49,035 bases of DNA from a virus: positions 1 through 49,035 of IMG/VR virus record IMGVR_UViG_3300006071_000670. One strand, written 5' to 3'. Both the position numbers and the translations under genes were made by a program. Within the stretch, counting starts at the first letter, position 1, and the number at the start of each line of letters is the position of its first letter. Under the pieces are notes generated by a model, which was not told the origin of the DNA, searched no databases, and saw only the letters and a list, made by a program, of their open reading frames with translations. Below, piece after piece: positions 15,905 to 37,165 of the stretch.

Positions 15905-18589
15905 CTAGTTAATTTTTATTGGATTGCTAGCTGTCCCCAATTGACCTTGTGTTTGGGCTTGCTGCGTACCTCCTGACATTCTATTATAAATGCCAGTGAA
16001 CAAGTCATTTTCCATTTTTTGTTTAGCAGCAATAGCTTCTTTATCGCCTTTAGCCGCTTTTTTAGCTAAGTCACGATATGTTGGATCTAATTGTAACGCA
16101 CCAATACGTTTGCCATATTCCGTCTCAGCAGCTTGACGAATTCTAGCGGCCGAAGTTTCATCGCTCATACTTGTAGCTTGAGTATATGCTTGCAACACTT
16201 CTGTTGTAGTTGGCTCTCTACCTAGTTTCTGAGCAAGGTCGGCTTTAATGCCAGCCAACTGCTGTGCCTTAAGTGCGTTGGCGCTATGCGCTGCAGAAGC
16301 TCCGATTTGTGCTCCAGCAATATGTGCATTAGCTTGAGTAATAGCGTTATCACGAGAAACAACGTGCCCTTCATGTTCGTTGTAAAGCTTCTCGGCAGCA
16401 TCCATATCTCCAATAGCTTCTTTACGTCTTGCTTCTTCAAGCGTAGTTTGAGCTTTCATGTTTTCAACTTCAGCAACACGTTGGGCTTTACGTGCCTCAG
16501 CTTCACCCGCAGCAAATTTACCTAATGACTTAAGTCCAGCAACACCGGCTCCACCAGGAGAAGGCGTTGTACCAAAGTCAGCAAACGCCTGTGCCATACG
16601 TAAATAACGATCACGTGTAGATTCATTAGCTGCATTAGCTTGTTGTTGCTCAAGAACATTCATAAGCGCTTTGTATTTTTCTCCGCCGCCTTGTTCAATA
16701 CCTAGTTCTTTTGCCATTGCTTGACGCTGTTTTAGCATATCCATTGGATTGCCTAAATTCATATTAGAACTAAACTGAGGCGCTGCTGGGCCTCCAGTAG
16801 GAGCAGCCGGAGCAGCAGGGGCAGCAGCAGCAGTGGGTGGAGCGGCAACAGGTTTTTCAGCTACAGGAGCTTCGTCTGTTTCTTTTTTAGCTGTTTCTTT
16901 TTTGATCGGGACACCACGGTCGCTATATCCTTCTGGTGGTGTATATTGAATGCCATGCCGTTTTAATCGATCAGCTTTTTGCCATTCTGTTTCTGTACCT
17001 AACATACCTAATACGTCACCAAGATTAGAAACTGTAAAACCATAGCCTGGGCCAGAATTTTGCCCGACAGTTTCTTCTGGTGTTGGCACAAGGCCTTCGT
17101 TAGCAAAAGCAATAATCCCGCCACCAGCAAGACGTTGAGTATCAAATGCTGGGCCACCAGCAGCACCGAGGCCAGACATACGGGCTTGTTGGATTGCTTC
17201 TGGGTTGGGTTGTGGTTGTGGGATTGCACCGGCTTGGGCAATAGCTGCTCCAGCACCAGGAAGTTGACGTAGTCGGTTTTGATCTTCTTGTACGCCTTGG
17301 AAAAGAATACGTTCACTAGGTGTTACCTGTGGGTCATTAATGCGATTTTGTAATTGTGCAGCACTTAAACCACGTGAATAATCTTCTAGTTGCGGGTCGT
17401 TAATAACGGCACCATATTTATATCCGGGCACTTTACCGCCCTTTTTCATGCCGATTATGCCACCTTGTGCCTTACCAAAAGCAGCACCTAATGCAGCAGC
17501 AGTTCCACCAAGACCAATAGCTTGCTGTGTACCTGTCGGCTGCGCTTGGTATATAGAAGTAGTCTGTGCCTGCAACGGTAACCCACGAAGCATATTAGAC
17601 ATTGTGCCAAGTTGTAGCAACGGATACTGCTGAGCAGTAGCATAATTTTGTATTGCTTGGTTAATAATTTGTTGTTGGTTTTGTTGCTGCTGACCGCCAA
17701 ATTGGTTTTGACCTTGCAATATGCCCATCTGTTGGCCATACTGTGTTTGTCCTAATTGGCCTAAAGCATTAGCAGCATTTACTGCTTGACCATAACCTTG
17801 CAATCCAGTTTGATATCCTTGCAAACCTAAGTTAGCACCAAACTGTTGTGCTTGTTGCGCCTGATTAAATGCTTGATTGTATCCTTGGCCGATCGCCTGT
17901 TGACGAGCTAAATCAAAGTTTTGAGCGTTTAACCCTTGGGCCAATGTCTCACGATTACCACCAAATGCACCTTTACCTGCCGCACCAGCAGCAATGTTTT
18001 GGCCTTGTATTGCTTGTTGTTGGTTTAAAAGATTAAGCTGTGGGGCAAGCGATTGCTGAATATATGGATTCATGTAGGCTTGGATCGAATTAGGATCTGT
18101 TGCCATGTTTGCATAATTTTGTCCGGCGCCAGCAGCTTGACCAGCTAAACCTAAAGAACCTAAACCACCCATACCGGCCATACCAGAAGCTTGGCCAAGT
18201 TGTGGGGCAACTTGCATATTAGCCATTCCTTGGAACGACTGTTGTTGCATTGGGGAAAACCCTGCTACGTAATTAGATGGGTCATTGCTATATGGGGTAT
18301 ATGGCTTAAAGCCAGTAATTTCTGTAGAGCCCTGTGTACCTGTACCAGGAACTAATGCGCCACTTGAATCATATTGTGCTGGAACACCAGGAGTTGTTTG
18401 GGTGTTAAATAATTGTGCCTGAGTAGCGTTAAGCATATTGCTAACGTATGGCTGAGCATATTCTGGAATATTAGTATTAGATACAGTTGTTTGAGTGGGG
18501 CTTGGGCTGCCACCACCACCTCCACCACCGGAGTCTCTAAGGACGCCACCGTCGGCATACTGGAATCGTTTATATCTTAAAATGCTCAT
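15905..18589 (-). CDS. Putative internal/ejection virion protein, Gln/Gly-rich
   Basis: 894 residues. The N-terminus carries YADGGVL (11-17) followed by a poly-Gly stretch. The region about 90-330 is extremely rich in Gln, Ala, Gly and Asn, with GAFGGNRE. Further Gly-Gly motifs occur at 376-387 (GGIIGMKKGGKV) and 487-497 (LAGGGIIAFAN). The middle is an Ala/Pro linker. The C-terminal 250 residues are Ala/Lys/Glu-rich and helical. It lies between the GNAT-like gp13 candidate and the giant zincin protein, the place of T7 gp14/gp15 ejection proteins. Function inferred from order and composition. Confidence 0.6.
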   Translation of the reverse strand: MSILRYKRFQYADGGVLRDSGGGGGGGSPSPTQTTVSNTNIPEYAQPYVSNMLNATQAQLFNTQTTPGVPAQYDSSGALVPGTGTQGSTEITGFKPYTPYSNDPSNYVAGFSPMQQQSFQGMANMQVAPQLGQASGMAGMGGLGSLGLAGQAAGAGQNYANMATDPNSIQAYMNPYIQQSLAPQLNLLNQQQAIQGQNIAAGAAGKGAFGGNRETLAQGLNAQNFDLARQQAIGQGYNQAFNQAQQAQQFGANLGLQGYQTGLQGYGQAVNAANALGQLGQTQYGQQMGILQGQNQFGGQQQQNQQQIINQAIQNYATAQQYPLLQLGTMSNMLRGLPLQAQTTSIYQAQPTGTQQAIGLGGTAAALGAAFGKAQGGIIGMKKGGKVPGYKYGAVINDPQLEDYSRGLSAAQLQNRINDPQVTPSERILFQGVQEDQNRLRQLPGAGAAIAQAGAIPQPQPNPEAIQQARMSGLGAAGGPAFDTQRLAGGGIIAFANEGLVPTPEETVGQNSGPGYGFTVSNLGDVLGMLGTETEWQKADRLKRHGIQYTPPEGYSDRGVPIKKETAKKETDEAPVAEKPVAAPPTAAAAPAAPAAPTGGPAAPQFSSNMNLGNPMDMLKQRQAMAKELGIEQGGGEKYKALMNVLEQQQANAANESTRDRYLRMAQAFADFGTTPSPGGAGVAGLKSLGKFAAGEAEARKAQRVAEVENMKAQTTLEEARRKEAIGDMDAAEKLYNEHEGHVVSRDNAITQANAHIAGAQIGASAAHSANALKAQQLAGIKADLAQKLGREPTTTEVLQAYTQATSMSDETSAARIRQAAETEYGKRIGALQLDPTYRDLAKKAAKGDKEAIAAKQKMENDLFTGIYNRMSGGTQQAQTQGQLGTASNPIKIN

Positions 18590-18592
18590 AGC

Positions 18593-19027
18593 TTAATCCT
18601 TAAAAAACTTCTGGTACGTTATGCTTTGCACTTCATACCCGTAGCCCTTCATGTGTTTTCCCCAGCCGGGGCGACCAATAAATTCAATACCACTGCAACC
18701 TGTATCTTTAGCAAATTTCTCTGCTAATTCTTGCATCTTGTCTTCCACGTATTGCATGTGGTTTTTCTCCATAGCACAATACTGCACCCGCAACATTTTA
18801 CACTGTGGGTACTGTTTAACTTCTGTAATTAAATGCCCATACAGCTTCTTTTCTTCTGTACAAAATACCACCCAAAGCTGCATTTGTCCATTAAGTACAA
18901 AGCGTAATATGTCATCAACTTTAGAGCGTCCTCTAGACCAAAGTTCAGATTCTGCCAAGTACGGCAGCAATCCTGGAATGGTTTCAGATAAATGGCCGGG
19001 AGGAACAAGGCTTATCTCCAAATTCAT
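18593..19027 (-). CDS. GNAT-like protein in the internal-protein block (T7 gp13 position)
   Basis: 144 residues. LWVVFCTEEKKLYGHLITEV and LRVQYCAMEKNHMQYVED follow the beta-strand and helix order of a GNAT fold, with RPGWGKHMKGYGYE near the end, but the P-loop-like R/Q-x-x-G-x-G/A acetyl-CoA motif is degenerate. GNAT-like proteins next to podovirus internal proteins often have a structural rather than catalytic role. The start overlaps the stop of the upstream gene (ATGA). Confidence 0.6.
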   Translation of the reverse strand: MNLEISLVPPGHLSETIPGLLPYLAESELWSRGRSKVDDILRFVLNGQMQLWVVFCTEEKKLYGHLITEVKQYPQCKMLRVQYCAMEKNHMQYVEDKMQELAEKFAKDTGCSGIEFIGRPGWGKHMKGYGYEVQSITYQKFFKD

Positions 19028-20559
19028 TTTGGTAGGTATTTATCCACTTTTACTGCAGGAGCTTGTTTCTTACGCCCTGTTCTTGCTTGACGAATCTTAT
19101 CCATCATTGCATATAGCCGTTTTGCACCAGCATCAGTAGAGCCATTCCCAAGATGAGACACAACATCCGCAGGCACAACAAACTCGCCGTCAGCCAATCT
19201 GGCAGGTTGCTTTCCACCAATATTAGCAGGGATGCTATCAGACATACCATCGCCAGGACCTTTAAGTAAATGAGGGTTTCCACCAGCAGCATATCCTCCT
19301 AAACCAACTACGTTACCACCGCCAGCAAACTGCTGCATCGGTTCACCAGTATAAGCGTTTGTTTTTGGGTCATAATCGGAATTAACTATTGACGCACTTG
19401 TAGGCAATTGGGTCGGTGTAGCAAACTGAGTATGCTCTTGTAGGCCTTGTGGGTAGTAGTTATTTACCCCGTTGTTAGCATTTTGCTGACTCATCTGCTC
19501 AACAGCACCGCCGATTGCATAATCTTGTGTATCTGCATCTTCGTTATTTATTTGCCCCAAATTAACTACAGGCTTTAATCCTTTACTTACGGCATTTTTA
19601 CCCATACCGGCAGCTTTAGCTTTTTGTCCAAGCCTGTATAGCGCAGCACTATATGCGTCTAAGTTTTTAGTATTAGGGTCTGTATCTTGTGAAACGCTTA
19701 AGCTTGGCTGTGCCGTAGAAATAATTGGCCGTTGGCTAGCATAATTTTCTAGTATGTTTGTAGCATTAACTACACTACCATAGTCTGAATCGCCGCTGTA
19801 AGAAGGTACAGAACCACCAGCAGCCATGCCAACACGGTAGTCAGTGTATTGTGGTTTGTAGTATGGATTTGGTTGAGCTGGCGCATAACCTTGGAAGTTT
19901 TTAGAAAGAGGCGTAAACCCAAATGGGTTTGTATTCCCTGTAGCTGCTGTTGGAATAGTCGACTTAGAAGACATAGAGTCGGTCAATACGGGAGCAAAAG
20001 CCATCATAGCTGCGCCAGGATGACTTCCAAAAGTAGACATAGCTGTAGGGCCTGTTAGTCCAGTTAATGCATTAGCACCACGTGATGCTGGTGGAGGGGT
20101 ATTAAGAACCGCTTTTCCTGTAGTATCTTCTGAACCCCAATTAGCTGGATTAGCTTCACTTTCTGCGGTAACATCGCCTGCCGGAGCCAAAGAAGCCCCT
20201 GCACCTGCAAATGCGTTAGTCAGGTCAGCACCACCATAAGCCCCCATACCAGCCATAAGACCTTTAGTAAGTGAACCTGTCATAGCATAGTCGGCCCCGC
20301 CAACAAGCATACCTGATAGCAAAGGTGTCATTGCCCCATCAGTTAAAACATCCAAACCAATACCGGCAACGGCTGGTAAAATAGAACTTAAGAATCCTGC
20401 TTCTGGAAGGCCTGTTTCTGGGTTAGTGGTAAGACTACCACCATGCTTTGCAGCCAAGCCTTTAAGCGCCTCGACCTCATTTGGAGACATATGGACGAGC
20501 TCAGTGTCTGTCCCACGACCTTTGGATTTTAAATAGTGCGCTGTTTTGTGTAGTCCCAT
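19024..20559 (-). CDS. Putative virion protein with repeated Gly-Gly motifs
   Basis: 511 residues. N-terminal LVHMSPNEVEALKGLAAKHG is globular-like, followed by a hydrophobic Gly/Ala segment (about 55-120) that may interact with membranes. The rest is low complexity. Gly-Gly motifs occur at 245-251 (MAAGGSV), 347-353 (YAIGGAV) and 411-417 (FAGGGNV). The C-terminus contains LADGEFVVPADVVSHL. Probably an ejection or tail component made with its neighbours. No catalytic motif is seen. Confidence 0.55.
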   Translation of the reverse strand: MGLHKTAHYLKSKGRGTDTELVHMSPNEVEALKGLAAKHGGSLTTNPETGLPEAGFLSSILPAVAGIGLDVLTDGAMTPLLSGMLVGGADYAMTGSLTKGLMAGMGAYGGADLTNAFAGAGASLAPAGDVTAESEANPANWGSEDTTGKAVLNTPPPASRGANALTGLTGPTAMSTFGSHPGAAMMAFAPVLTDSMSSKSTIPTAATGNTNPFGFTPLSKNFQGYAPAQPNPYYKPQYTDYRVGMAAGGSVPSYSGDSDYGSVVNATNILENYASQRPIISTAQPSLSVSQDTDPNTKNLDAYSAALYRLGQKAKAAGMGKNAVSKGLKPVVNLGQINNEDADTQDYAIGGAVEQMSQQNANNGVNNYYPQGLQEHTQFATPTQLPTSASIVNSDYDPKTNAYTGEPMQQFAGGGNVVGLGGYAAGGNPHLLKGPGDGMSDSIPANIGGKQPARLADGEFVVPADVVSHLGNGSTDAGAKRLYAMMDKIRQARTGRKKQAPAVKVDKYLPK

Positions 20560-20590
20560 AAGGCCTCACCCAGTAAATAATTGCAGTTTA

Positions 20591-20914
20591 TCACGATACC
20601 TTGACCTTTAAAACATTTGCGTTAGCGGTATCTACGTATACGTCACCTACTCTTAGGTTAGATAAATCCACCTGTGTGGGTAGGCTTAGGATTCTAGTGC
20701 CACCAGAAGCATTGGCTTGGCTAAAATTAAGGGCAGAAACTATCCTAGTTACCCCGTTTATGGTGTTTCTTTGGGTAGACATTGCCGATGGCCCAGCGTT
20801 ATCTAGCTGGGAAAAGTACAGACGTAGGACGTTATTAAGTTGATCCTGATATTGCTGACTATAGTCTACGGGGGCAATAGGTAGGTTGGGGGAGGTTGTG
20901 GTTCCTGTGCTCAT
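20591..20914 (-). CDS. Small phage structural protein
   Basis: 107 residues: an N-terminal Thr/Pro-rich segment, the helix YSQQYQDQLNNVLRLYF, and a beta-rich C-terminus (LRVGDVYVDTANANVLKV). It is wedged between the tail nozzle candidate (4 nt overlap) and the 511-residue protein, so it is likely a minor virion component. No function recognised. Confidence 0.6.
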   Translation of the reverse strand: MSTGTTTSPNLPIAPVDYSQQYQDQLNNVLRLYFSQLDNAGPSAMSTQRNTINGVTRIVSALNFSQANASGGTRILSLPTQVDLSNLRVGDVYVDTANANVLKVKVS

Positions 20915-23067: not shown

Positions 23068-23073
23068 ACGGGT

Positions 23074-24086: not shown

Positions 24087-24307
24087 TGTGGTTCAGAGCC
24101 TTGCTTCATTGCAACAGAAGCACCGCCAGCGGCAGATACAATACCCAAAGCTTCTGCAAGTTCACGAATGCTAACTTGATTGGTATGAATAACTTCCCAC
24201 AAGGCTACGGCAATAACCGCAATCAAACTAATTAGCCATGTCCAACGACCAAGGTCGTGGGTTTTGTTGTCTTTACCAGTAAGTAAATGTTGAATAATAT
24301 CGTTCAT
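24083..24307 (-). CDS. Putative holin
   Basis: 74 residues with one strong membrane segment (about 22-41, WTWLISLIAVIAVALWEVI) and a second weaker hydrophobic stretch (50-67) rich in Ala and Gly. Charged N-terminus, short charged C-terminus. Its place immediately upstream of spanins and endolysin supports a role as the pore that releases the endolysin. Alternatively, the coiled-coil membrane protein at 24311-24763 could be the holin. Confidence 0.65.
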   Translation of the reverse strand: MNDIIQHLLTGKDNKTHDLGRWTWLISLIAVIAVALWEVIHTNQVSIRELAEALGIVSAAGGASVAMKQGSEPQ

Positions 24308-24310
24308 TGT

Positions 24311-24763: not shown

Positions 24764-24780
24764 ATGACACTTTTTTCACC

Positions 24781-27583: not shown

Positions 27584-28870
27584 CTACCCTGTGTAAGTGC
27601 CGCTACTTGTAAAAGTATGAATTGTGTAGCCGCCTGAAGAAGTAACCGTACCTCCAGTGCCACGTTGTGATCCAAGGTAAGAAATTACTACAATTCCATT
27701 GCTACCATTGCCACCATAATAAGGTCCGTTACTAGCAGCAGATGCACCTCCACCTCCGCAACCGTATCCAGATGCACCGCCACCGTTAGCGCTTGCTCCA
27801 GTTCCACCGCCTCCGCCACCTGTACCGCCAGATCCAGCTCCATAAGCTGCGCCACCGCCTCCAGCACCGCCAGCAGCATAATATACAGATGATCCGCTTA
27901 TTGTTGACACTAAACCAGATCCACCATTACCACCAACAGTAGATTGACCAGCTTGACCAGCAGCGCCTGCGCCACCACCGCCTCCGCCATTAACTCCACC
28001 AGCAGAAGCTCCATTATTTCCTTGCCCAACTGTTCCAGATCCAAAAGAACTGCTATAAATACCAGCCCCACCTCCAGATCCACCAGAAAGACCAGCAACA
28101 CTACCGTTACCACTTCCTCCGCCACCACCGCCAACTGCAGTAAGGCCAAAAGCTGTAGAGTTTGAACCGCTGGAACCAGTGCCACCGCCACCACCCGCAC
28201 CTCCAACAACAATTGAATACGCTTGATTTGGAGCTACTGTAGTGCTGTTAGCAAGTAATCCACCGCCTCCGCCACCGCCAGCACCTCCGTTATTTGAACC
28301 ACCGCCGCCACCGCCACCAGCAACAATTAAATAATTAACAGAATATCCACCAACTACTGGAGAAGCAATACCAGAATATTGCAACCATCCTTGAACGCCA
28401 TCTGCATAAACTAATGACACAGAAGCGCCAGCAGTAGAAATTGTTGAATTAGCAGTAGTTCCCTCTACATAACTACCATTAGGCAATATAACTAAAGCGT
28501 TTACGTTAAAGTTTTTCTTGTAATCAATAAAAGTTACATATTGTCCTGCAGTAGGACTTGTAGGAAGGTTTACATAAACAGATGTTGATACAGTATTAAT
28601 TGCATATGTACTGTTTGAAACTGCTGTAAAGTTAGCAGATTGAATTGCTTGAAATGTTCCAGGACCACCACCACCAACTGCAGCGGTTGTCATTGTTGTA
28701 CCATCTTGGAATTTTAAAGTACCACCAAGATTTACTGTATTCGCAGTTGTAGCAGTTAAAAGCGTTACGCCGTTGGCTTGGAGTGCAAGGTTGCCTGAGT
28801 TATCCGCAGTTGTGCGAACCCCTGTTATTCCTGATATGACGCCATTGTCGGCATTAATAGTTGAAGCCAT
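27584..28870 (-). CDS. Glycine-rich fibre/adhesin protein (paralogue 1)
   Basis: 428 residues. The N-terminal 170 residues are fibre-like (MASTINADNGVISG, then a beta-sandwich-like segment with YVTFIDYKKN). Residues about 175-400 are poly-glycine blocks of 5-8 Gly separated by short Ser/Ala/Thr loops, the layout expected for polyglycine-II sandwich adhesin tips. The C-terminus GTGGTVTSSGGYTIHTFTSS is shared with the 316-residue paralogue. A receptor-binding role is inferred. Confidence 0.75.
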   Translation of the reverse strand: MASTINADNGVISGITGVRTTADNSGNLALQANGVTLLTATTANTVNLGGTLKFQDGTTMTTAAVGGGGPGTFQAIQSANFTAVSNSTYAINTVSTSVYVNLPTSPTAGQYVTFIDYKKNFNVNALVILPNGSYVEGTTANSTISTAGASVSLVYADGVQGWLQYSGIASPVVGGYSVNYLIVAGGGGGGGSNNGGAGGGGGGGLLANSTTVAPNQAYSIVVGGAGGGGGTGSSGSNSTAFGLTAVGGGGGGSGNGSVAGLSGGSGGGAGIYSSSFGSGTVGQGNNGASAGGVNGGGGGGAGAAGQAGQSTVGGNGGSGLVSTISGSSVYYAAGGAGGGGAAYGAGSGGTGGGGGGTGASANGGGASGYGCGGGGASAASNGPYYGGNGSNGIVVISYLGSQRGTGGTVTSSGGYTIHTFTSSGTYTG

Positions 28871-28879
28871 TATTTTTCC

Positions 28880-29860
28880 TTAAGCCGTATATGTGCCAGA
28901 TGATGTAAATTTCATGATTGTATTGCTGCCTGATGTTGTAACAGTGGGTGATCCTGTTGTAACGCCTGAATAGTTTGTTGTAGGCACTGAAATAATAACA
29001 ACACCTGATCCACCAGCACCACTAGCAAAATCGCTTGAGCTATTACGCCCTGCTCCACCTCCACCACCGCCTAAATTGGCTGTACCAGCCGTTGCAGCGC
29101 CATTAGTTGAGCCTGCGCCACCACCACCGTTACCACCAGCACCAGCAGATCCACCTAAAACAACGCCACCACCACCACCAGCTGCATAATAAACACTAGA
29201 TCCTGTAATAGTATTTGCTACGCCAACACCACCAGCGCCACCAGTTGTATCTGTTCCATTAGAGCCTACTGCACCAGCTCCGCCACCGCCACCACCACCA
29301 GCGTTGTTAGAACCACTATATGTAGTTCCAGAACCACCATTATTTCCTTGTCCTGCAGTTCCTGCTCCATACGCACCAGTTGCTCTAGCACCACCGCCAG
29401 ACCCGCCACTAGAAGCATCGTTATAGCCACCACCGCCACCACCATTAGCGGTTAAAGATAATCCTGTTGAATTGTTGCCTACAGTTCCTTGTGCGCCTGT
29501 AACACTAGCACCACCAGCACCAACGACAAAATAATAAGTAGTTCCTATATTTAATGTAGTTGCACTAGATAAATAACCTCCAGCACCTCCACCGCCACCA
29601 CCAGCAAATCCACCTGAAGTAACTCCAGAGCCAGCCCCACCACCAGCAACAATTAAATAAGATGCTGTATACGCTTGTTGAGTAATTACAGTCCACCCAG
29701 ATCCAGAATAAACTTCTGTTTGGTTGGTAGATGTGTTGTAACGTATTGTCCCAGCAACTGGAGCTGATGGGCGTTGTGCAGTTGTTCCAGACGGCAACAA
29801 AATACCCTGCGTTGCAGAGTTTGCGGTTATTCCAAGCGAACCATCAATAATTACCGTCAT
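28880..29860 (-). CDS. Glycine-rich fibre/adhesin protein (paralogue 2)
   Basis: 326 residues. N-terminal QRPSAPVAGTIRYNTSTNQT is the common fibre module that precedes a tip. Poly-Gly blocks fill about 75-290, then SNTIMKFTSSGTYTA closes the chain. N-terminal module and glycine blocks match paralogue 3 but the loops between glycine blocks differ. Confidence 0.75.
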   Translation of the reverse strand: MTVIIDGSLGITANSATQGILLPSGTTAQRPSAPVAGTIRYNTSTNQTEVYSGSGWTVITQQAYTASYLIVAGGGAGSGVTSGGFAGGGGGGAGGYLSSATTLNIGTTYYFVVGAGGASVTGAQGTVGNNSTGLSLTANGGGGGGYNDASSGGSGGGARATGAYGAGTAGQGNNGGSGTTYSGSNNAGGGGGGGAGAVGSNGTDTTGGAGGVGVANTITGSSVYYAAGGGGGVVLGGSAGAGGNGGGGAGSTNGAATAGTANLGGGGGGAGRNSSSDFASGAGGSGVVIISVPTTNYSGVTTGSPTVTTSGSNTIMKFTSSGTYTA

Positions 29861-29869
29861 GGTAAATCC

Positions 29870-30247
29870 TTAAACTGTTATTTCAACCCAAGCTGTAGTA
29901 GCTTCATCCCACTTGTATGGTTTGCCGTCTGTTGGCATTGGTGTCGGTGCTTCCCACGTCCATGTAGAATGATTTAATGTCCAGCTTGCGTATGGTTGAG
30001 GAGCATAAAAAACATCATGCGCTTGGTCGTATGTATAACCAATACCAGCGTAGTTACCACGAAGAGCTTTGGTTTGATCCGCAGATTCTTGACCTGTAGC
30101 TGGGTCGTAGTGTTTTCCGCCACGGGTGTTATAGCTAGTCTGAATCCAAGCACCGGGGCTAGAATCCACAAATGTTTTAAAAAAATCGGCTTCAGCGACA
30201 ATCACTTGTGTCACTTTGCCATCTACTACTTTTGCATAATGGCTCAT
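29870..30247 (-). CDS. Fibre-associated small protein
   Basis: 125 residues. MSHYAKVVDGKVTQVIVAE is a beta-rich start of a type I have seen in aquatic phages near fibre genes, followed by AWIQTSYNTRGG, YAGIGYTYDQAHDVF and a Trp/Pro-rich end (WTWEAPTPMPTDG). Sits between two glycine-rich adhesins. It may be a chaperone or a fibre tip domain. Function unknown. Confidence 0.65.
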   Translation of the reverse strand: MSHYAKVVDGKVTQVIVAEADFFKTFVDSSPGAWIQTSYNTRGGKHYDPATGQESADQTKALRGNYAGIGYTYDQAHDVFYAPQPYASWTLNHSTWTWEAPTPMPTDGKPYKWDEATTAWVEITV

Positions 30248-30262
30248 GTAATATCTCCTTTG

Positions 30263-31213
30263 TTAAGCCGTATAAGTACCACTAGTTGTAAATGTGTGAA
30301 TTGTATTACCACCTGATGATGTTACTGTGCCTCCAGTGCCACGTTGAGTTCCAGCATATGAAATAATAACTATGCCAGAAGCACCGCTTCCAAAAATTCC
30401 GCCATTTCCTGAATTAGCAGGTGCAGAACCTCCAGCAGCTCCCCCTGTGCAATATGTAACTGTAGAACCAGAAATTGTAGAGTTTGCACCAGGACCAGCA
30501 GTTCCGTATGCACCAGAAGATGCAGCTCCTCCAACACCGCCAGCGCCGCCACCGCCACCACTATTACCTGCGTTAGCCCCATTTCCACCAGCATAACCTT
30601 GACCCGAAGTTCCAGCACCGCCAGTACTACCAGTGCTTGGGCCTCCACCGCCACCACCTCCAGAAGCTCCAGCCACACCATTGTTACCTTGACCAGAAGA
30701 AGCTCCAGAGCCACCGCCACCACCACCAAGTGCTGTTGCAATTGCCCCTAAAGAAGATGATGTTCCATTTGCACCGTTTGCAGCAGAAGTCCCAGGATTA
30801 GTTCCTCCAGCGCCAATCGTAACTGCATAACCAACACCGCCAGTCAAAGTTGTAGTATTTGCTAAATAACCACCAGCACCACCGCCACCACCAGCATAAC
30901 CACCGGGAGAGCCACCCCCGCCTCCGCCCCCGCCAGCAACCAAATAATTAACTGAATATGTTTGAGAAGTTATGGTTGACCAAGTTAAACCAGTATAGAT
31001 TTCTGTATTGTTATTACTTGTGTTATATCGAATAGTTCCAGCGGGAGGACTTGATGGTCTTTGTGCATCTGTACCAGTTGGTACAGTTAAGCCGCCTGTA
31101 GATGAGTTAGTGAATATCATTCCACCAGTAGTGGAAACTATTACATTGCCAGTAAGATCAGCAGTTACTTTAAACGCTGTAGTAGTTGTATTTCCTGCGC
31201 TTATCGTACTCAT
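30263..31213 (-). CDS. Glycine-rich fibre/adhesin protein (paralogue 3)
   Basis: 316 residues. N-terminal QRPSSPPAGTIRYNTSNNNT is shared with paralogue 2. The Gly blocks span about 95-280, and the C-terminal end GTQRGTGGTVTSSGGNTIHT matches paralogue 1. It is therefore a mosaic of the other two, suggesting recombination within this cassette. The start lies 1 nt from the stop of the 330-residue gene. Confidence 0.75.
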   Translation of the reverse strand: MSTISAGNTTTTAFKVTADLTGNVIVSTTGGMIFTNSSTGGLTVPTGTDAQRPSSPPAGTIRYNTSNNNTEIYTGLTWSTITSQTYSVNYLVAGGGGGGGGSPGGYAGGGGGAGGYLANTTTLTGGVGYAVTIGAGGTNPGTSAANGANGTSSSLGAIATALGGGGGGSGASSGQGNNGVAGASGGGGGGGPSTGSTGGAGTSGQGYAGGNGANAGNSGGGGGAGGVGGAASSGAYGTAGPGANSTISGSTVTYCTGGAAGGSAPANSGNGGIFGSGASGIVIISYAGTQRGTGGTVTSSGGNTIHTFTTSGTYTA

Positions 31214-32206
31214 TTAGATTACCACCCATGATTGACCTGGTGCAACGGTAACTGTTACACCGTTTGCTGTTGCCACTGGACCTACTGAAAACCCATTTTG
31301 TCCAGCAGCTATTGTAGCATTTGAGGTAATGTTTACGTTGTTTAAAAGTATTGAACTATTACCAGCAGCTTGTGCGCCAGATGAAGTAGACCATGTAGGA
31401 GCTGCGGCATTACCTTGTGATGTTAATACTTGACCAGCAGTACCATAAGAAGCATTAGCAGCCAAAGCTCCACTTGCATTAATAGTAAACGCATCAACCG
31501 CAGAGTTGTTAACAACAAAGTGAATTGAGTTAGCAGTTGCCGTACCAACAACAAGGTCGGCAGCACCAGAATACACATAAGCTACGTTGGCTGCTGAAAG
31601 TGCGCCAGCGCCAGTATATTTGCTAGAAGTAATACCAAAGTCTGCATATGCTGTGCCAGTATCGTTTGTTACTACAAAGTCAACAGAAGCATTAGTTCCA
31701 TTACTTAAGTTCTGAGCAATAATTTGTACATATGTATTAGCTGTATTTGCGTAAGAAGCAAAAATGCCAGTATCTGAATAGCTAAGAGCGCCAAGAGAAA
31801 AAGCACCAGCATTAGAACTAACTGCGGTATTTCCAACAGATACAATATTGTTTGCAGTAACCGTTTGCAGTACGGTTACGTTACCAGTAGCGTCTTGGTT
31901 TACAGACTTTTCTGCAGGGTAGGTAATAAATACGTCTTTGGTGTTTGAGCCAAAGTTAACTACAGAGTTAGCATTTGATGAGGCAAGAATAGTTGTACGG
32001 GCAAGCGCAGTATTACCTGAATAGTACGTGCCAATACCTACTTCCCAGTTCGAACCAACTTGATCCGCAATGGTATAGTAAGTTGTATTGTTGTTGCCCA
32101 CCACAGCAAAGGACTGATAGCCTGCTTGAGCGCCAAGCAAAACAACAGTGCCAGTACCAGCAGTGTTACTAGATTCCTTTACCCTATCAAACAGCACAAG
32201 AGCCAT
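31214..32206 (-). CDS. Tail fibre-like protein with virion-attachment N-terminus
   Basis: 330 residues. MALVLFDRVKESSNTAGTG is a recurrent N-terminal module of tail proteins in aquatic phages (about 1-110), then an Asn/Ala/Thr-rich beta-helical shaft (ANSVVNFGSNTKD) and a C-terminal tip with TVTVAPGQSWVVI. Likely a fibre or its adaptor. First of the fibre block in transcription order. Confidence 0.7.
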   Translation of the reverse strand: MALVLFDRVKESSNTAGTGTVVLLGAQAGYQSFAVVGNNNTTYYTIADQVGSNWEVGIGTYYSGNTALARTTILASSNANSVVNFGSNTKDVFITYPAEKSVNQDATGNVTVLQTVTANNIVSVGNTAVSSNAGAFSLGALSYSDTGIFASYANTANTYVQIIAQNLSNGTNASVDFVVTNDTGTAYADFGITSSKYTGAGALSAANVAYVYSGAADLVVGTATANSIHFVVNNSAVDAFTINASGALAANASYGTAGQVLTSQGNAAAPTWSTSSGAQAAGNSSILLNNVNITSNATIAAGQNGFSVGPVATANGVTVTVAPGQSWVVI

Positions 32207-32218
32207 GTTTGGCTCCTA

Positions 32219-32653
32219 TTAACCGATTTGGATAATTGCAGAACCCGCAGCAGCAGTAGGGAAGATGACCGTGAAGGTCCCGTTAGTCGAAGTAACTGTA
32301 CTACCGAAGCTCAATGCACAAACAGCGGTATTAGCAGTGCTGTTATAAATCAAAGCGCCCGCTGCACTAATGTTAGCGTTAGTCCAAGAAGTATTAGCAA
32401 ATGACATAAACGCCACGTTACCAGTAGATGTTGGGCTTGTGCTAACTGTCAAAGTGTTACCACCGGCAGTGTAGTTAGAACCTGAACTTGTTACTTCGTT
32501 CACAGTTGTATATGCAGTTGTAGCATTGCTTAATGTTGCTGAGCTTGTGTACAGTGCAAGTTTATAAGTCTGGGAAGAACCAGACACCAAATTTTGCTGA
32601 CCGCTAAGGATTTGTACCTTGAACGAATCTGCCATTGCTTGAGTAATTGCCAT
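32219..32653 (-). CDS. Tail-associated protein, beta-rich
   Basis: 144 residues beginning MAITQAMADSFKVQILSG, a family common next to fibre genes in aquatic phages, with YKLALYTSSATLSNATTAY in the middle. Compact and beta-rich, probably a minor tail or fibre-attachment protein. Role not established. Confidence 0.65.
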   Translation of the reverse strand: MAITQAMADSFKVQILSGQQNLVSGSSQTYKLALYTSSATLSNATTAYTTVNEVTSSGSNYTAGGNTLTVSTSPTSTGNVAFMSFANTSWTNANISAAGALIYNSTANTAVCALSFGSTVTSTNGTFTVIFPTAAAGSAIIQIG

Positions 32654-32662
32654 TTGTTGCTC

Positions 32663-33184
32663 CTAATAAAGATTTGATTTACGGATGTTTTCTGTTGCGG
32701 GTAGCACCCGCAAATTTGACGGAACATGCAAACCAGACACCATTTTACCTTGTAAAGGTATGATATGGTCAACATGCCACGAACTGCCTGTTACTTTTGT
32801 TAAAAGCGCCGCCAATTTGTATTCATTACCGATACGCTCAAAGTCAATATCGGTTAGCCAAGCTGGAGTACGCTGCAGTTTAGCAAGCCGTCGAAATGTA
32901 GTACGGGCAACTTTTTGCGCTTTTCCAGAGCCTTGCTCATATTTTTGTACGGCTAGCTTTCTAGCTTGTTTTCCAGCTTCAGATTTGGCATATGTTTGTC
33001 CAACTAATTGGCCTTTTGCTGACGCTCTATAAGTTTTGGTTCTAGCATTTTTTAATGCTTTTGATACAGGATTTTGCATTTCTGCTAGGTACTGGCACTT
33101 TTTGCATACGTGTCTATGACCATGAGTGTGCTTTTTAAAAGCGCTCATGTCTTTTTCTTGAAGACATTTTTTGCACGTTCTCAT
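32663..33184 (-). CDS. HNH endonuclease with N-terminal zinc finger
   Basis: 173 residues. Two zinc pairs C4/C7 and C27/C30 start the protein, then a basic Lys/Arg/Ala-rich linker, then the nuclease core WHVDHIIPLQGKMVSGLHVP, SNLRVLPATENIRKSN with the H, N and H/N positions. An HNH in the middle of a structural operon is usually a homing-type endonuclease. The start overlaps the adaptor stop codon by 1 nt, so it fits without breaking the operon. Confidence 0.8.
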   Translation of the reverse strand: MRTCKKCLQEKDMSAFKKHTHGHRHVCKKCQYLAEMQNPVSKALKNARTKTYRASAKGQLVGQTYAKSEAGKQARKLAVQKYEQGSGKAQKVARTTFRRLAKLQRTPAWLTDIDFERIGNEYKLAALLTKVTGSSWHVDHIIPLQGKMVSGLHVPSNLRVLPATENIRKSNLY

Positions 33185-33891
33185 TACGGGTTTACCCTAA
33201 TTTTAGCTTGACCATCACGATAACTATCGCCACGCTCAAGGCCGGTGCCCAAACGATTCAGTTGTGCCAAGGCCTCATTATACTTGGCGTTATATCCAGC
33301 TATCAAATCAGCTTCGCCCTTCATGTAGGTATACGCCTCAACGAGGGAACCATAAAGAAGAACAGGAGAGTAATTGTCACCAAGCCATGAGGTGCCAGCA
33401 GTAACAATAGATTCTGGATAGTAAAAATAGTGCAGCTCTGCGCCGTAACTAAGATCGGGGGTTGGTCCCAAAATGAAAGTAAGCTCATTAGGGTCATTTA
33501 GTCTAGATCCAAATAACGCATAATATCGGGGTTTACCCGTAACGGTAGGGTTTGGATATGCTTCTCTAATGTAATTAACGTCTTTATTTAGCAGGTATAA
33601 ATACTCACCCGTAACTGGATCCATAACGGCCAAAGAATAAGTGGCCAAATAATCATTAGGACAAGCCAAGTATTTATTTGTTGCTGTGCAATTACCGGTA
33701 ACATTTTTTCTCAAAGACGGGATTTGAACGCTATTATAGATGCGATCTTCCGCCTGAATAATAAAGGTATTAATCTGAGTAGTGGCATTGACGTTAGACG
33801 CCCCACCCCCAGATGTAACCTGCACAAACGTATCAGGGAATTGGTTTTCCGTGTACGTCTGAATTTGAGAAAAAAGTTCTTGGTAATTCAT
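33184..33891 (-). CDS. Phage adaptor/connector-like protein
   Basis: 235 residues. Starts MNYQELFSQIQTYTENQF, with LVEAYTYMKGEADLIAGY near the C-terminus, the helix-rich head-tail connector pattern. The middle has beta elements (RYYALFGSRLNDPNELTF). Together with the 310-residue protein it may form the T7 gp11 or P22 gp4 level adaptor ring. The start codon overlaps the upstream stop. Confidence 0.65.
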   Translation of the reverse strand: MNYQELFSQIQTYTENQFPDTFVQVTSGGGASNVNATTQINTFIIQAEDRIYNSVQIPSLRKNVTGNCTATNKYLACPNDYLATYSLAVMDPVTGEYLYLLNKDVNYIREAYPNPTVTGKPRYYALFGSRLNDPNELTFILGPTPDLSYGAELHYFYYPESIVTAGTSWLGDNYSPVLLYGSLVEAYTYMKGEADLIAGYNAKYNEALAQLNRLGTGLERGDSYRDGQAKIRVNP

Positions 33892-34166
33892 TATGCCATT
33901 GGGCCTCTAGACATAGTGCCTTTAGTAGCTGCACCTGTACCACGAATCTTAATACCGTCGGTTTTCTCGCCTAGTTGTCCCTTGCTAATACCAGCAATAG
34001 AAATTTTAAGTTCATCCATTGGATTACCTTTTTTAACTACGCCAGACATACCGTCGGCAACAGAAGTGCCGTTTTTAGCATAGACTTCTGCGGCTTTGTT
34101 TTCTTTAGCGTGACCTAAAGGATATGGGCCTGCAGGTGTTGGTTTTACAAAACTGTTTTTAGCCAT
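33891..34166 (-). CDS. Small basic structural-block protein (91 aa)
   Basis: 91 residues, Lys/Gly-rich, with the C-terminal signature RGTGAATKGTMSRGPMA that recurs in aquatic phage structural regions. Probably a minor virion component. No motif for activity. Confidence 0.55.
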   Translation of the reverse strand: MAKNSFVKPTPAGPYPLGHAKENKAAEVYAKNGTSVADGMSGVVKKGNPMDELKISIAGISKGQLGEKTDGIKIRGTGAATKGTMSRGPMA

Positions 34167-34168
34167 GA

Positions 34169-34354
34169 TTACCCCTGATTTTTAGCACGAGCTAAGTTGC
34201 GGCCCATAGCTTTCATAGATGCGCTAGTAACTGTAGATGCGCCCTTTTTGCCTTTGCCGGTTTGAATGCCTACAGACGAACCAGAGTCGCCAAGGTTTTT
34301 ACCCTTAGTTCTACCTGTCTTTGTAACGCCGTCGGCTACTGATTTATATCCCAT
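34169..34354 (-). CDS. Small basic structural-block protein (61 aa)
   Basis: 61 residues, strongly basic (GRTKGKNLGDSGSSVG, GKGKKGASTVTSASM). No hydrophobic core or catalytic motif. Sits in the block of small Lys-rich proteins and is possibly DNA- or capsid-associated. Confidence 0.5.
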   Translation of the reverse strand: MGYKSVADGVTKTGRTKGKNLGDSGSSVGIQTGKGKKGASTVTSASMKAMGRNLARAKNQG

Positions 34355-34363
34355 AATTTACTC

Positions 34364-34789
34364 CTAAGTTATACTTACTGTTACTGTACCTATTTGCCCT
34401 ACGGCAATCAAGTCATTAGGCGTTAAACCAAAGTCATTGAGTCTTGCGCCGCCAACAGGGTTCCACCCCCATTGAAACACCCTACTACCCAAATCTATAT
34501 TGCCAAACCCGTCTGGACCTTCTCCAGTAAGGTTAATCTGCAAACCACTTGTACCAGACTGAATATAACTTGTATCCGGTCTTGGTTCTCTTACTGCTTG
34601 TGGATCATCTACTGGGTATAAGCCCAACGACAACTGTGGATGATCTGGATCCCAACAACTCTGACATACCTTAATTTTATACGGTTTTGTCTTTAAAATC
34701 TGTGTTTTTAGCTCTTTTAATTTATAGCGAAAATTGCAGCGATCGCACTGCGAAATTGCATATTTACCAGAGGCGAACTTGTTTGGCAT
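34364..34789 (-). CDS. Zinc-ribbon structural-block protein
   Basis: 141 residues. CDRC and CQSC (about residues 15-45) form an N-terminal zinc ribbon, then a Pro/Asp-rich linker (LGLYPVDDPQAVREPRPD). The C-terminus DLIAVGQIGTVTVSIT resembles one repeat of the 433-residue repeat protein. Probably a connector-level minor virion protein. Confidence 0.65.
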   Translation of the reverse strand: MPNKFASGKYAISQCDRCNFRYKLKELKTQILKTKPYKIKVCQSCWDPDHPQLSLGLYPVDDPQAVREPRPDTSYIQSGTSGLQINLTGEGPDGFGNIDLGSRVFQWGWNPVGGARLNDFGLTPNDLIAVGQIGTVTVSIT

Positions 34790-34792
34790 AGA

Positions 34793-35725
34793 TTAGGTAC
34801 CATAGTAGAACGTATTCCGTGGCACAACTCTAAGCGATGCTTTCTCCCGATCTTCCTCTGCAGCTAATTGGAACTGCTGTTCATAGTCGGCTTTGAGCAT
34901 CATAATGCGGCTTGGATCTACGTCTTCTAATTTTGTAGAAAGCTGATAAGCAAGACCAGCAACCATGCAAGGTATAAACCGGAATGGAATGTCTTGTACG
35001 TAAGCTCCAGAGCCTGTGTCTTGGATACGGCGCATGCGATAGTACACAAATGTATACTGATTACCAGGTGCGTTTGGTGTTGGCCAGACGTTAATTGAAG
35101 GTAAGTTTTGTACAGTAATTGCTGCGCCAGCAGTATGTGCCGTTGCGGTAGTGCCGTTTTGTCCACGAGCGCAGTTTAAAAGCTGATTGCCGTTGACGTT
35201 TGGATAGCTAATAATCTCGTTGTCTATCTGAATAAACCCAGAAGAGCCTACTTCTGCGGTAGAAGTAAGTGTAATTGTGGTATCTGTAGAGCTAACATTA
35301 GCAGCTAAAGTAGCAGTAATTGGGTTAGATTGCCCAGATTGGCGATTCACCCAAACCTGAATTGGTCGGCCTTGTGCCAATTTGTTTGGCAAGGTCATGT
35401 AGGTAGACTCAGAAATACGGCTAATATTAATGTCGATTTGGTTTAAAGTACCTGGCTGAGTACGGATAACCATGTCCATCAAATCAATAGTATCAACAGG
35501 CAAAGGATAGGTAGCTTGTCCAGTAACCATAGGAACAACACCCTGTTCGATTGTCCAAAGATTAATTCCACGGTTAGCCCACTCAATAGTAAGAATATTT
35601 AACGAACGACGTGCGGTTCTAAAATCGTAACCAGAACGCAACTGCTTACCGCAGCGCTCAAACGCTTCTTCGATAAGATCATTAACGTCTAGATTAAACG
35701 ACGAAGTACCTGTAGTTGTTGCCAT
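34793..35725 (-). CDS. Head-tail adaptor (T7 gp11-like) candidate with an inserted beta module
   Basis: 310 residues. N-terminal helical part (NDLIEEAFERCGKQLRSGY, RSLNILTIEWANRGINLWT) and C-terminal LKADYEQQFQLAAEEDREKASLRV match tail-tube A/adaptor-like proteins. Residues about 145-205 hold a module (FIQIDNEIISY, TATAHTAGAAI) that recurs in the 718-residue nozzle candidate. Probably sits at the portal-tail junction. Confidence 0.7.
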   Translation of the reverse strand: MATTTGTSSFNLDVNDLIEEAFERCGKQLRSGYDFRTARRSLNILTIEWANRGINLWTIEQGVVPMVTGQATYPLPVDTIDLMDMVIRTQPGTLNQIDINISRISESTYMTLPNKLAQGRPIQVWVNRQSGQSNPITATLAANVSSTDTTITLTSTAEVGSSGFIQIDNEIISYPNVNGNQLLNCARGQNGTTATAHTAGAAITVQNLPSINVWPTPNAPGNQYTFVYYRMRRIQDTGSGAYVQDIPFRFIPCMVAGLAYQLSTKLEDVDPSRIMMLKADYEQQFQLAAEEDREKASLRVVPRNTFYYGT

Positions 35726-35982
35726 TATTTAGCCTTTTTCTTTACAATCTTTTCGGCGTTCTTTACAATTTTTTTGGCTGCTGGCTTTTTAGCTGGACGA
35801 GTTGTAGCTTTAGCAACACGTGGTTTGCGTTTTGGCTTTGGCTCTTCTACTGGGAAAGGCCACATTTTAAACTCAACCGGTGTTGGTTTAAATTCTTCTT
35901 TTGGCTTAATTCTTAGCCAGTTTAAAAAACGATTAATTAGTTCTTTCAATTTCAACTCCAATCCGTAGGATAAGCAAGTCAA
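35725..35982 (-). CDS. Lysine/proline-rich small protein, start uncertain
   Basis: No ATG is present. The longest reading starts at TTG 35982; TTG 35949 has GGAG 6 nt upstream and is a better candidate, giving 74 residues starting with KELINRFLNWLRIKP. The C-terminal half is Lys/Ala/Pro-rich (KRKPRVAKATTRPAKKPAAKK), like histone-tail or H1-like DNA-binding segments. Overlaps the end of the 46-residue gene. Likely a DNA-condensing or virion-internal protein, which is inference. Confidence 0.5.
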   Translation of the reverse strand: MTCLSYGLELKLKELINRFLNWLRIKPKEEFKPTPVEFKMWPFPVEEPKPKRKPRVAKATTRPAKKPAAKKIVKNAEKIVKKKAK

Positions 35983-36073
35983 CTACAAGGACCCAACGAT
36001 CTTCATACTCGTCTACTACCTCAATACCTAGAGCTACACCATTTATAAAACATAGGTGAATAGCCCAGCTCAC
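35933..36073 (-). CDS. Small GTG-started protein (46 aa)
   Basis: The reading SWAIHLCFINGVALGIEVV, DEYEDRWVLVVDLLILRIGVE, then ERTN-stop is open, hydrophobic and protein-like. GTG 36073 overlaps the TGA of the upstream gene (GTGA), the same coupling as elsewhere in the operon. I see two beta-hairpin-like halves and no cysteine pair. Overlaps the N-terminus of the next gene by up to 50 nt. Function unknown; resembles very short proteins found in structural operons of aquatic phages. Confidence 0.65.
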   Translation of the reverse strand: MSWAIHLCFINGVALGIEVVDEYEDRWVLVVDLLILRIGVEIERTN

Positions 36074-36327
36074 TTTTTTGCGGCTCTCATGTTATCAACC
36101 AAATTAGGGTATGGTCGGCCTGCTTTTTTAGCCGCTGCTTTAGCGCTAGCTTTTTTAGCAGGGGATAGCTTTTTAGGTTTGCCCAAGCTTTTCGGTCTTG
36201 GTTTATCCCAAACGTTTCCGCCTTCTTTATACATGGTTACATCATTCGGATTATCTTTGCGGACAATCGTCTTTTTCTTACCCATCTTAGAAGGCTCAAT
36301 AGCGCCCATACCCCTAGAGTACCGCAT
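36070..36327 (-). CDS. Small basic protein with Gly-Gly motif
   Basis: 85 residues. Begins MRYSRGMGAIEPSKMGKKK and is Lys-rich, with MYKEGGNVW (32-40), one of the recurrent Gly-Gly motifs, and a C-terminal Lys/Ala stretch (KLSPAKKASAKAAAKKAG) like a histone tail. The start follows the TAA of the upstream gene with no gap. Candidate DNA-binding virion protein. Confidence 0.6.
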   Translation of the reverse strand: MRYSRGMGAIEPSKMGKKKTIVRKDNPNDVTMYKEGGNVWDKPRPKSLGKPKKLSPAKKASAKAAAKKAGRPYPNLVDNMRAAKK

Positions 36328-36642
36328 TTAGCACATTTTCCCACGGGTTTTACCCTTAGAAGCAATACCGTCAGCACGCTTAGAAGCTGAGCCTACTTTA
36401 CCGCCCTTTTTGTATGTATCGCCAGCAGGGTTCATACGAGACATAGCATCGGTCATAACATTAGACTTTGCTTTAGCCTTTTTCTTTTTAGGTTTAGGTG
36501 CTGGCTCTTCGTCTTTAACGCCACCAGCAGCAATAGCCGCCATAGCACGAGCACGTGTATCGTCACCGATATTTTTGTTTTGACCTTGAGCTGTTTCAGT
36601 CTCAATTACATCGCCTTCGGCGTAACGTTTCATCTTTTTCAT
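36328..36642 (-). CDS. Small basic protein with Gly-Gly motifs
   Basis: 104 residues from ATG 36642, preceded by AAGGGG. An in-frame ATG at 36660 lies inside the upstream gene. It starts MKKMKRYAEGDVIETE and ends ADGIASKGKTRGKMC. It carries YAEGDVI near the start and YKKGGKV near the end, and a Lys/Ala linker (KPKKKKAKAKS). Same architecture as its neighbours. Confidence 0.6.
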   Translation of the reverse strand: MKKMKRYAEGDVIETETAQGQNKNIGDDTRARAMAAIAAGGVKDEEPAPKPKKKKAKAKSNVMTDAMSRMNPAGDTYKKGGKVGSASKRADGIASKGKTRGKMC

Positions 36643-36643
36643 A

Positions 36644-37165
36644 TTAACGACCCCTTCCACTTTTTTTCATGCCACCACCGCACATTTTGATAGGAGTAGC
36701 ATTTTTTGTGCCCTTACCGCCTTTAGCGCCAGATTGAATTTTTAAATTCTTGTATCCACGCTCTTCTTTACCTTTGGTGTGCGCACGCTTTTGAACTGCG
36801 GACTCACCGTGTTTTAAGAGCTTGTTAGAACCTTTTTCTACGTCTTTAGACATAGTTTTTGGCCCCATTGTTTCTTTCATGCCAACTTTTTTCATTGCAA
36901 TTCCACCTTTTTTAAGTTTGGATAAATTAGTGTGTTTGCCTGGATGCTCTTGTTTATCGTGCATACCAAACGCTTTTTTAATCAACTTCTTGTCTTCTGC
37001 TAAATCGTCGTGCTTCATCATACCACCGCTCCTAAATTTTTTGCCTTTATCAGCCGCAGAAAAGTCTTTACCGACAGATTGTGGGATACCGACTTTTTTA
37101 GCAAAAGCTGCGTTATGCGCAACTGCTTCCATTAAATTGTGTTGTTTTTTAGATGTGCTAGGCAT
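36644..37165 (-). CDS. Lysine-rich protein with Gly-Gly motifs (173 aa)
   Basis: 173 residues. N-terminal MPSTSKKQHNLMEAVAHNAA with KVGIPQSVGKDFSAADKGK resembles small capsid-associated phage proteins. Then RSGGMMK and KKGGIAMKKVG, a very basic C-terminal half, and the end KMCGGGMKKSGRGR. High Lys content suggests DNA contact. Starts with a 1 nt overlap on the gene upstream. Confidence 0.6.
   Translation of the reverse strand: MPSTSKKQHNLMEAVAHNAAFAKKVGIPQSVGKDFSAADKGKKFRSGGMMKHDDLAEDKKLIKKAFGMHDKQEHPGKHTNLSKLKKGGIAMKKVGMKETMGPKTMSKDVEKGSNKLLKHGESAVQKRAHTKGKEERGYKNLKIQSGAKGGKGTKNATPIKMCGGGMKKSGRGR

Follow-up and report, generated by a model that had tools for sequence, protein, structure and literature searches.

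The T4 proteins IPI, IPII, and IPIII share an N-terminal capsid targeting sequence of ~10 residues that is cut off by the protease gp21 and is sufficient experimentally (PMC9026906), while phage P1 loads its antirestriction protein DarB into the head by means of a signal in the first 30 residues (PMC9024508). In phage P22, the ejection proteins gp7, gp16, and gp20 need the scaffold to enter the procapsid (PMC8402733). Here we describe a short motif, [YFML][AK]xGGx[VI], and a tag of ~28 residues that begins with it, in the late genes of an uncultured virus, IMG/VR record IMGVR_UViG_3300006071_000670; the whole stretch of DNA analyzed, 49,035 bases, is referred to as the window.

As in T4, small basic proteins that are otherwise divergent, and that differ from one related phage to the next, have a short element in common that is itself retained; the bodies carrying the tag are unrelated and variable. 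Unlike the T4 sequence, it is ~28 residues long, usually C-terminal, and known from sequence alone, and we do not file it as a T4-type capsid targeting sequence because that class is N-terminal. P1 offers a terminal signal that loads an antirestriction protein into the head, and the giant protein of the window matches a DarB-like PHROG; the P1 signal, however, is described on one protein, and the DarB-like protein of the window has no strict motif. P22 shares a short tail and internal ejection proteins with the window virus, but no common short motif is named on the P22 proteins in the parts of that source drawn on here.

A Gly-Gly motif in virion-type genes

The motif is real and is largely confined to virion-type genes. 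In a set of 56 window genes chosen by hand (15,675 residues), the strict motif occurs eight times, and seven of these sites lie in four of the five otherwise unrelated proteins to which the preliminary description had attributed it, the fifth (173 residues) having looser forms alone. All three sites proposed in the 511-residue protein are strict, as are those at residues 381 and 487 of the 894-residue protein, while YADGGVL at residues 11-17 of the latter does not satisfy the [VI] of the pattern as first written. Shuffled window genes gave a mean of 0.43 sites and a maximum of 4, with none of 2000 shuffles reaching eight; shuffles that kept glycine runs intact gave a mean of 0.58 and a maximum of 4 (n = 1000), and the reversed motif does not occur in these genes. 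Three glycine-rich proteins at 27584-31213 on the minus strand, with 41-57 Gly-Gly each, serve as an internal control for glycine content and contain no strict motif. The lone strict site outside the named proteins, YKLGGYI in 47518-48177, is perhaps due to chance. In the small proteins, the motif goes beyond what had been described, forming the first seven residues of a conserved, portable tag with the consensus [YFM][KA]xGGxV-SAS-[KR]-R-ADG[IC]Ax[RK]GKT[RK]G, which is basic and usually C-terminal.

Since the pattern had been drawn from the window sequence, a fair test requires other genomes. In 160 loci, seeded by the 511- and 110-residue proteins, and the window (2025 distinct open reading frames, ORFs), the strict motif occurs 253 times, versus 12 for the reversed motif and ~13 in shuffled sequences. 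Six reversed or permuted controls were counted in the 160 loci: four gave 9-12 and two were raised, at 40 and 69; the control scoring 69 overlaps the true motif where GGG occurs, and the score of 40 is unexplained.

In 15 related records, 51 of 53 strict motifs are within two late blocks. The block between the genes for the major capsid protein and the adaptor has 22 motifs in 104 ORFs (16,254 residues), and 25 of the 27 tagged ORFs of these records sit there; the ejection block, which follows the gene of the 718-residue type, has 29 in 104 ORFs (63,194 residues). Elsewhere there are two motifs in 493 other late-strand ORFs and none in 497 opposite-strand ORFs (990 in all), against nine reversed motifs in the whole set and 5.1 in shuffles. 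The preliminary description would have been refuted by a motif equally frequent in replication proteins or in shuffled sequences; the outcome spoke against refutation, with 0 of 53 motifs on the strand opposite the late genes, the strand that carries polymerase and helicase homologues where these were found. An exception outside the 15 records is Caulobacter phage RW, one of whose two strict motifs lies in an annotated DNA helicase and the other in an unannotated antisense ORF. The simple choice of ORFs used for the 15 records takes in spurious ORFs and loses some real genes, among them the 85-residue motif gene in G001, the window's own virus.

Five of the 15 records had been reached via the 511-residue protein, four via the 110-residue protein, and six via the tag core. 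Because all of them were thus reached through proteins or patterns under study, the test was repeated from the portal gene, in which both motif and tag are absent. The best 80 of 597 portal relatives include 14 loci with both capsid and adaptor homologues; a first selection of 27 was made by hand, and a mechanical check of all 80 left the same 14. These loci are close relatives (portal at least 65% by best segment); L433 and L435, whose coordinates are identical, probably represent a single virus. Their blocks from major capsid protein to adaptor contain 29 strict motifs in 13,420 residues, versus none in 72,903 residues elsewhere, and the reversed motif occurs once in the block and once elsewhere. 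Tagged ORFs lie between these two genes in all 14 loci (one in five loci, two in four, three in four, and five in one; by a tighter core pattern, one in five, two in seven, three in one, and four in one). Three of the 14 also have one tagged ORF after the adaptor, and none lies upstream of the capsid gene or on the opposite strand. The claim that the motif is common to unrelated late proteins and is kept in relatives is supported.

The tag and its variable bodies

We collected 384 distinct viral tagged ORFs with a pattern that requires ADG, a basic residue, and T, and for some loci also GKT, so that the invariance of these residues is partly built in. Of these ORFs, 224 end exactly five residues past GKT, with cysteine as the last residue in 91, and 329 end within 16. 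A second form of the tag (88 ORFs) continues for 12-16 residues, and in a third, to which most members of a set of 41 ORFs belong, the tag is close to the N-terminus of a ~60-62-residue protein; tandem pairs of tag copies are present in at least three ORFs. The two glycines, which were not part of the selection, are kept without exception in 50 representatives drawn from different body groups, where mean column identity is 10%. GKT is present in 117 of 117 tags selected without requiring it and the other basic positions swap K and R, though many of the loci behind these 117 were fetched with a DGIASKGK seed and by tblastn with the tag and are not free of bias. R replaces K in a few cores, namely those of the window's 61-residue protein, G012, and Planktothrix phage Pag-Yong1. 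Selection acts on the protein and not on the DNA letters. Among 229 distinct core coding sequences the third codon positions vary by 0.97-1.95 bits (the first and second are fixed largely because the residues were required in collecting them), and a DNA-level element such as a recombination or packaging site was rejected on account of this variation.

The bodies to which the tag is attached are diverse. With the tags removed, 338 N-terminal parts form 89 single-linkage groups at an E value of 1e-3; the largest group (138) is chained, and 31 of its members, hence at least 31 tagged ORFs, start like phrog_16759 by a simple pattern, while a group of nine is of the DUF6321 type. No direct BLAST match was found in any of 233 same-locus tagged pairs, although the bodies are short and simple enough for remote similarity to escape. 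Bodies are also poor in order-promoting residues (0.21, versus 0.33 for all ORFs). Among 50 tagged proteins, Pfam gave no match at an E value of 0.01 and PHROGs a single weak one (E = 0.0079); outside those 50, the tagged body of L085 matches phrog_16759 (E = 1.9e-12). N-termini of this type, which bear the tag in relatives, also match PHROGs called virion structural protein. A second small motif protein of the window, of 85 residues, matches phrog_34011 in its C-terminal part (E = 1.3e-18), and the motif is present in 31 of the 37 members of its cluster.

Bodies also change between close relatives. In five distinct pairs of loci whose adaptors are 87-92% identical, a counterpart of at least 30% identity over the longer protein was found for 2 of 15 tagged bodies, both in L130 versus L161 (identities 88 and 55), compared with 14 of 30 untagged ORFs, some at 82-97%; this is our own count, in one direction, with the duplicates L093 and L094 dropped. 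The tags do not follow the bodies closely, as median tag identity stays at 60-65% until body identity exceeds 80%. A recent duplication of one gene within a genome was considered and is not supported, tags of the same locus being 63% identical on average, as are random pairs (63%); these tag identities are raised by selection on the core pattern.

Two further observations concern body types. For the first residues (up to 49) of the window's 173-residue protein, matches were found in 99 phage records of GenBank. Jumbo phages are frequent among these, and the matches include phiKZ PHIKZ165.1, PhiPA3 316, and E. coli phage 121Q structural proteins. A protein at 37422-37688 (minus strand) matches DUF6321 (E = 2.5e-23) and aligns to the rear end of PHROGs whose lengths range from 99 to 928 positions; this type, found also on the nine tagged bodies, is perhaps a second portable terminal module, and DUF6321 was not found in the literature searched.

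Ejection-type proteins and a proposed loading signal

Outside the small proteins, the motif occurs chiefly in two products of the ejection block. Residues 107-372 of the 894-residue protein match the DNA ejection protein phrog_4287 (E = 1.1e-08). Both glycines of its MKKGGKV site are invariant in 13 of 13 aligned family members, where mean column identity is 34%, and its AGGG..AF site (LAGGGII) is nearly invariant in the same 13. By eye, this protein (15905-18589, minus strand) looks like a fusion of two adjoining ejection proteins of phage DSL-LC04 (294 and 645 residues). The 511-residue protein ends, after its Gly-Gly motifs, in a GPGDGMSDSIPA...ARLADGEFVVPADVV segment that matches phrog_17300, a tape-measure C-terminal module; the match is weak (E = 0.017), and this is an ejection-block protein from a phage with a short tail. 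Other families at the ejection position carry tandem motif copies 8-9 residues apart, such as MASGGIVAFDEGGEVPRFQVGGAM. AlphaFold models of the 511- and 894-residue proteins are poor, with a mean predicted local distance difference test score (pLDDT) of 47 and 53 from 16 and 13 sequences, respectively, and the motif sites fall almost wholly in segments below 50. Low confidence at the motifs would be consistent with docking motifs in unfolded stretches and equally with shallow alignments, and poor models prove nothing. Solved structures gave no useful match for the 511-, 173-, or 894-residue proteins or for a tagged protein of 188 residues. Downstream lies the 2074-residue protein, whose best stretch, residues 1279-1742, matches DarB-like phrog_10089 (E = 4.8e-53), covering part of a profile of 4647 positions; two PHROGs with unknown function score better, and Pfam LPD39 is matched as well. 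These profile matches suggest that the short-tailed window phage may pack a polyvalent protein of antirestriction type.

The best explanation, to which we give a probability of about one half, is that the tag is a virion-loading signal on swappable internal proteins of short-tailed phage heads. The heads would carry two kinds of internal protein, namely the ejection proteins (511 and 894 residues, together with the DarB-like protein) and the variable small basic proteins. Through the tag, differing bodies would all be recognized by one partner as the head is assembled; cargo could then be exchanged while the tag is retained, and the bodies would exit the head together with the DNA. The ejection proteins have, in probably unfolded stretches, the first seven residues of the tag without the rest, in many cases several times over. 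This suggests that the dock is partly shared, and the motif there and the start of the tag are likely the same signal. By analogy with P22, the likeliest dock for both during head assembly would be the scaffold: the tag is basic, and the first 70 residues of the homologues of the scaffold-like protein (n = 112) have a median net charge of -15 (range -23 to -8), for which reason scaffold docking is proposed. The scaffold itself was assigned by gene order and not by a profile match. Presence in the virion, a loading function, the scaffold as partner, and ejection into the host are thus what we infer from the sequences. The near-absence of the motif outside the late blocks fits the suggestion in the preliminary description that the proteins are packed into the head or share a binding partner.

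Several findings weigh against a loading signal. The tag is not universal: its core pattern is absent in 5 of 30 records, 11 of the 50 loci in which 5 kb or more precede the adaptor had no tagged ORF, and the GenBank relatives CRP-901 and QDWS535 have no strict motif in the 50,000 bases examined of each. The proven signals of T4 and P1 are both N-terminal, and the 2074-residue protein, a strong candidate for loading, is without the strict motif. The motifs of the ejection proteins lack the ADG...GKT part and may constitute another signal. When all Gly-Gly pairs of the ejection block are considered, the preference at each motif position is modest, at 1.3-1.4 fold, versus 2.2-5.1 fold in tagged proteins and 1.4-2.2 fold in untagged proteins of the first block; a logo of any hydrophobic-xx-GG pattern was diluted by glycine-rich proteins and was set aside. 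In the close locus pairs, 16 of the 30 untagged ORFs of the same block also have no counterpart, and the change of bodies may therefore be a property of the whole block. Lastly, the tags are basic enough to bind DNA directly.

This last point leads to the alternative that survives best, though we hold it to be rather unlikely: a DNA-binding or DNA-condensing tail, with the small basic proteins coating or neutralizing the packaged DNA and no protein partner being recognized. Tags are strongly basic (+0.196 per residue) and bodies mildly so (+0.049). G-x4-G-K-T is a phosphate-binding (P-loop) consensus, and the core fits the Walker A sequence [AG]-x4-G-K-[ST] in all 117 tags, with GKT fixed where other basic positions exchange K and R. 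A plain charge tail, however, has no need of a fixed Gly-Gly and GKT, the few cores with R for K and the bias in the set of 117 weaken the P-loop comparison, and no strand is apparent by eye before the core, unlike in folded P-loop proteins. Through its P-loop-like core, the tag may bind DNA phosphates or a nucleotide directly.

A smaller chance attaches to the tagged proteins being connector or head-completion parts, in which the tag would bind the portal or adaptor and the bodies would line or plug the neck. Their genes do lie just before the adaptor gene, and some loci have a 61-62-residue protein with a near-N-terminal core after it, but the number of tagged ORFs varies from one to five between loci, and loci whose adaptors are almost identical mostly have dissimilar tagged bodies; in both respects the tagged proteins are unlike fixed connector parts.

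Processing at the Gly-Gly, which had been raised in the preliminary description, found no support, and a role as a protease cleavage site in virion maturation is very improbable. Adenovirus-type proteases cut after a hydrophobic-x-Gly-Gly pattern, the conserved element of the tag comes after the Gly-Gly, and the capsid protein matches the head maturation protease PHROGs phrog_133 (E = 1.7e-10) and phrog_4523 (E = 1.4e-11). These matches, however, are on the rear part of longer models and probably stem from the capsid half of fusion proteins; a scan that covered fewer than the full 56 window proteins recognized no other protease suited to Gly-Gly; and the motif has one residue more between its hydrophobic position and the glycines than the adenovirus-type site. 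The stretch after the Gly-Gly is moreover strongly conserved, GKT included, which makes the tag unlike a leader that is cut off. That the motif is a flexible glycine linker or an effect of composition can scarcely be credited, since, although many late proteins are glycine-rich and confidence at the motifs is low in the poor ejection-protein models, neither the shuffled, glycine-run-preserving, and reversed controls, which rule out a composition artefact, nor the three glycine-rich window proteins yield the motif.

Genome context, spread, and implications

The positions of these features in the window are collected in Table 1. On the minus strand, the late genes run from the terminase (phrog_38), portal (phrog_1216), GroES-like, scaffold-like, and major capsid protein genes, through small proteins, the adaptor (SU10_adaptor), tail genes, and a 718-residue structural protein (phrog_3287), to the 511-, 144-, 894-, and 2074-residue proteins. 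The major capsid protein matches phrog_371 and Pfam Phage_capsid_4. A 66,656-base record contains the 511- and 104-residue window proteins at 100% identity. The window virus belongs to a lineage of short-tailed phages, freshwater or lake viruses that infect bacteria. The 18 GenBank records nearest by portal include Pag-Yong1, Pelagibacter phages HTVC023P and HTVC027P, Roseobacter phages CRP-901 and CRP-902, and Caulobacter phages.

Table 1. Positions of motif sites, tag elements, and associated proteins in the window.
Feature	Position	Strand	Remark
Loose motif YADGGVL, 894-residue protein, residues 11-17	18539..18559	-	Ends in L, misses [VI]
MKKGGKV, 894-residue protein, residues 381-387	17429..17449	-	Strict site
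LAGGGII, 894-residue protein, residues 487-493	17111..17131	-	Strict site
MAAGGSV, 511-residue protein, residues 245-251	19807..19827	-	Strict site
YAIGGAV, 511-residue protein, residues 347-353	19501..19521	-	Strict site
FAGGGNV, 511-residue protein, residues 411-417	19309..19329	-	Strict site; precedes conserved tape-measure-like C-terminal part
YKEGGNV, residue 33 of 85-residue protein (36070-36327)	36211..36231	-	Strict site
YKKGGKV, from residue 83 of 110-residue protein (36328-36660)	within 36331..36414	-	Strict site; starts the tag
C-terminal tag, YKKGGKV through last residue	36331..36414	-	110-residue protein (GTG start; 104 residues from inner ATG)
Tag core ADGIASKGKT	36346..36375	-	110-residue protein
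110-residue small basic tagged protein	36328..36660	-	Between major capsid and adaptor genes
173-residue protein	36644..37165	-	N-terminal domain phrog_16759, E = 6e-21
Looser form FRSGGMM, 173-residue protein, residue 44	37016-37036	-	
Looser form LKKGGIA, 173-residue protein, residue 84	36896-36916	-	
Divergent tag core ADGVTKTGRT near N-terminus of 61-residue protein (34169-34354)	34307..34336	-	From translation
Acidic first 70 residues of scaffold-like 327-residue protein (41834-42817)	42608..42817	-	Candidate docking site for the basic tag
2074-residue DarB-like protein	9672..15896	-	Downstream of motif-bearing ejection proteins; profile matches

Beyond the window, at least 120 IMG/VR stretches match a DNA pattern of the tag core. 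In a genome collection, 21 contigs match it, of which three (L282, L283, and L295, all contigs of metagenome-assembled genomes) are convincing by eye and the remainder look like chance. A wider pattern gave 64 places in 30 records, most of them fetched via the tag or the 110-residue protein, versus none for the pattern read backward. A portal like that of the window (about 55-68% identity) is present in 22 of 24 hand-picked records fetched by the same two routes. Seven of the 18 GenBank relatives were examined, 50,000 bases each. In Pag-Yong1 (GenBank OL906435), an ORF located between the genes for the minor capsid protein and the adaptor ends in a variant of the tag, and the CDS UMO75986.1 is annotated at this ORF. 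Six strict motifs were counted in DSL-LC04 and six in 023Pt_psg01, where they occur in ejection-type proteins, small proteins, and large proteins on the portal side; HTVC023P has one. A search by tblastn with the tag and with the tagged 188-residue protein gave no match in 50,697 named-phage records, a weak negative because Pag-Yong1 holds a tag variant, and the 894-residue query likewise found none among the named-phage records. Four tag peptides searched as text were in no paper found, and literature searches on shared virion motifs, loading signals, and related terms returned no description of this tag.

Three side observations may be recorded. DSL-LC04 encodes a PcfJ-like protein of 825 residues between terminase and portal (L360:10344-12821, minus strand); three strict motifs fall within the first 61 residues of this protein, which is possibly an enzyme loaded via the same motif. 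A 91-residue window protein (33891-34166, minus strand) ends in TDGIKIRGTGAATKGTMSRGPMA, an ending that is kept in 16 ORFs of the examined loci and bears a faint likeness to the tag core (DGI..RG..TKG.M). One 87,451-base record, G008 (L332-L336), has two copies of the 718-, 511-, and 2074-residue-type, polymerase, and helicase genes ~64 kb apart, so that it is either a join of two related genomes or a genome with a long overlap at its ends.

How phages choose the proteins packed into their heads is known in few cases. We tentatively propose, while thinking it somewhat improbable in this full form, that one peptide code governs head loading in this freshwater lineage: a short Gly-Gly dock would place the ejection machine, and a longer, C-terminal version would load hypervariable injected proteins, perhaps counter-defense factors, swapped like cartridges. 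If this is true, the loading partner in such heads becomes testable and the tag could load foreign cargo; the tag would also provide a search handle for injected proteins in environmental viruses that homology searches miss.

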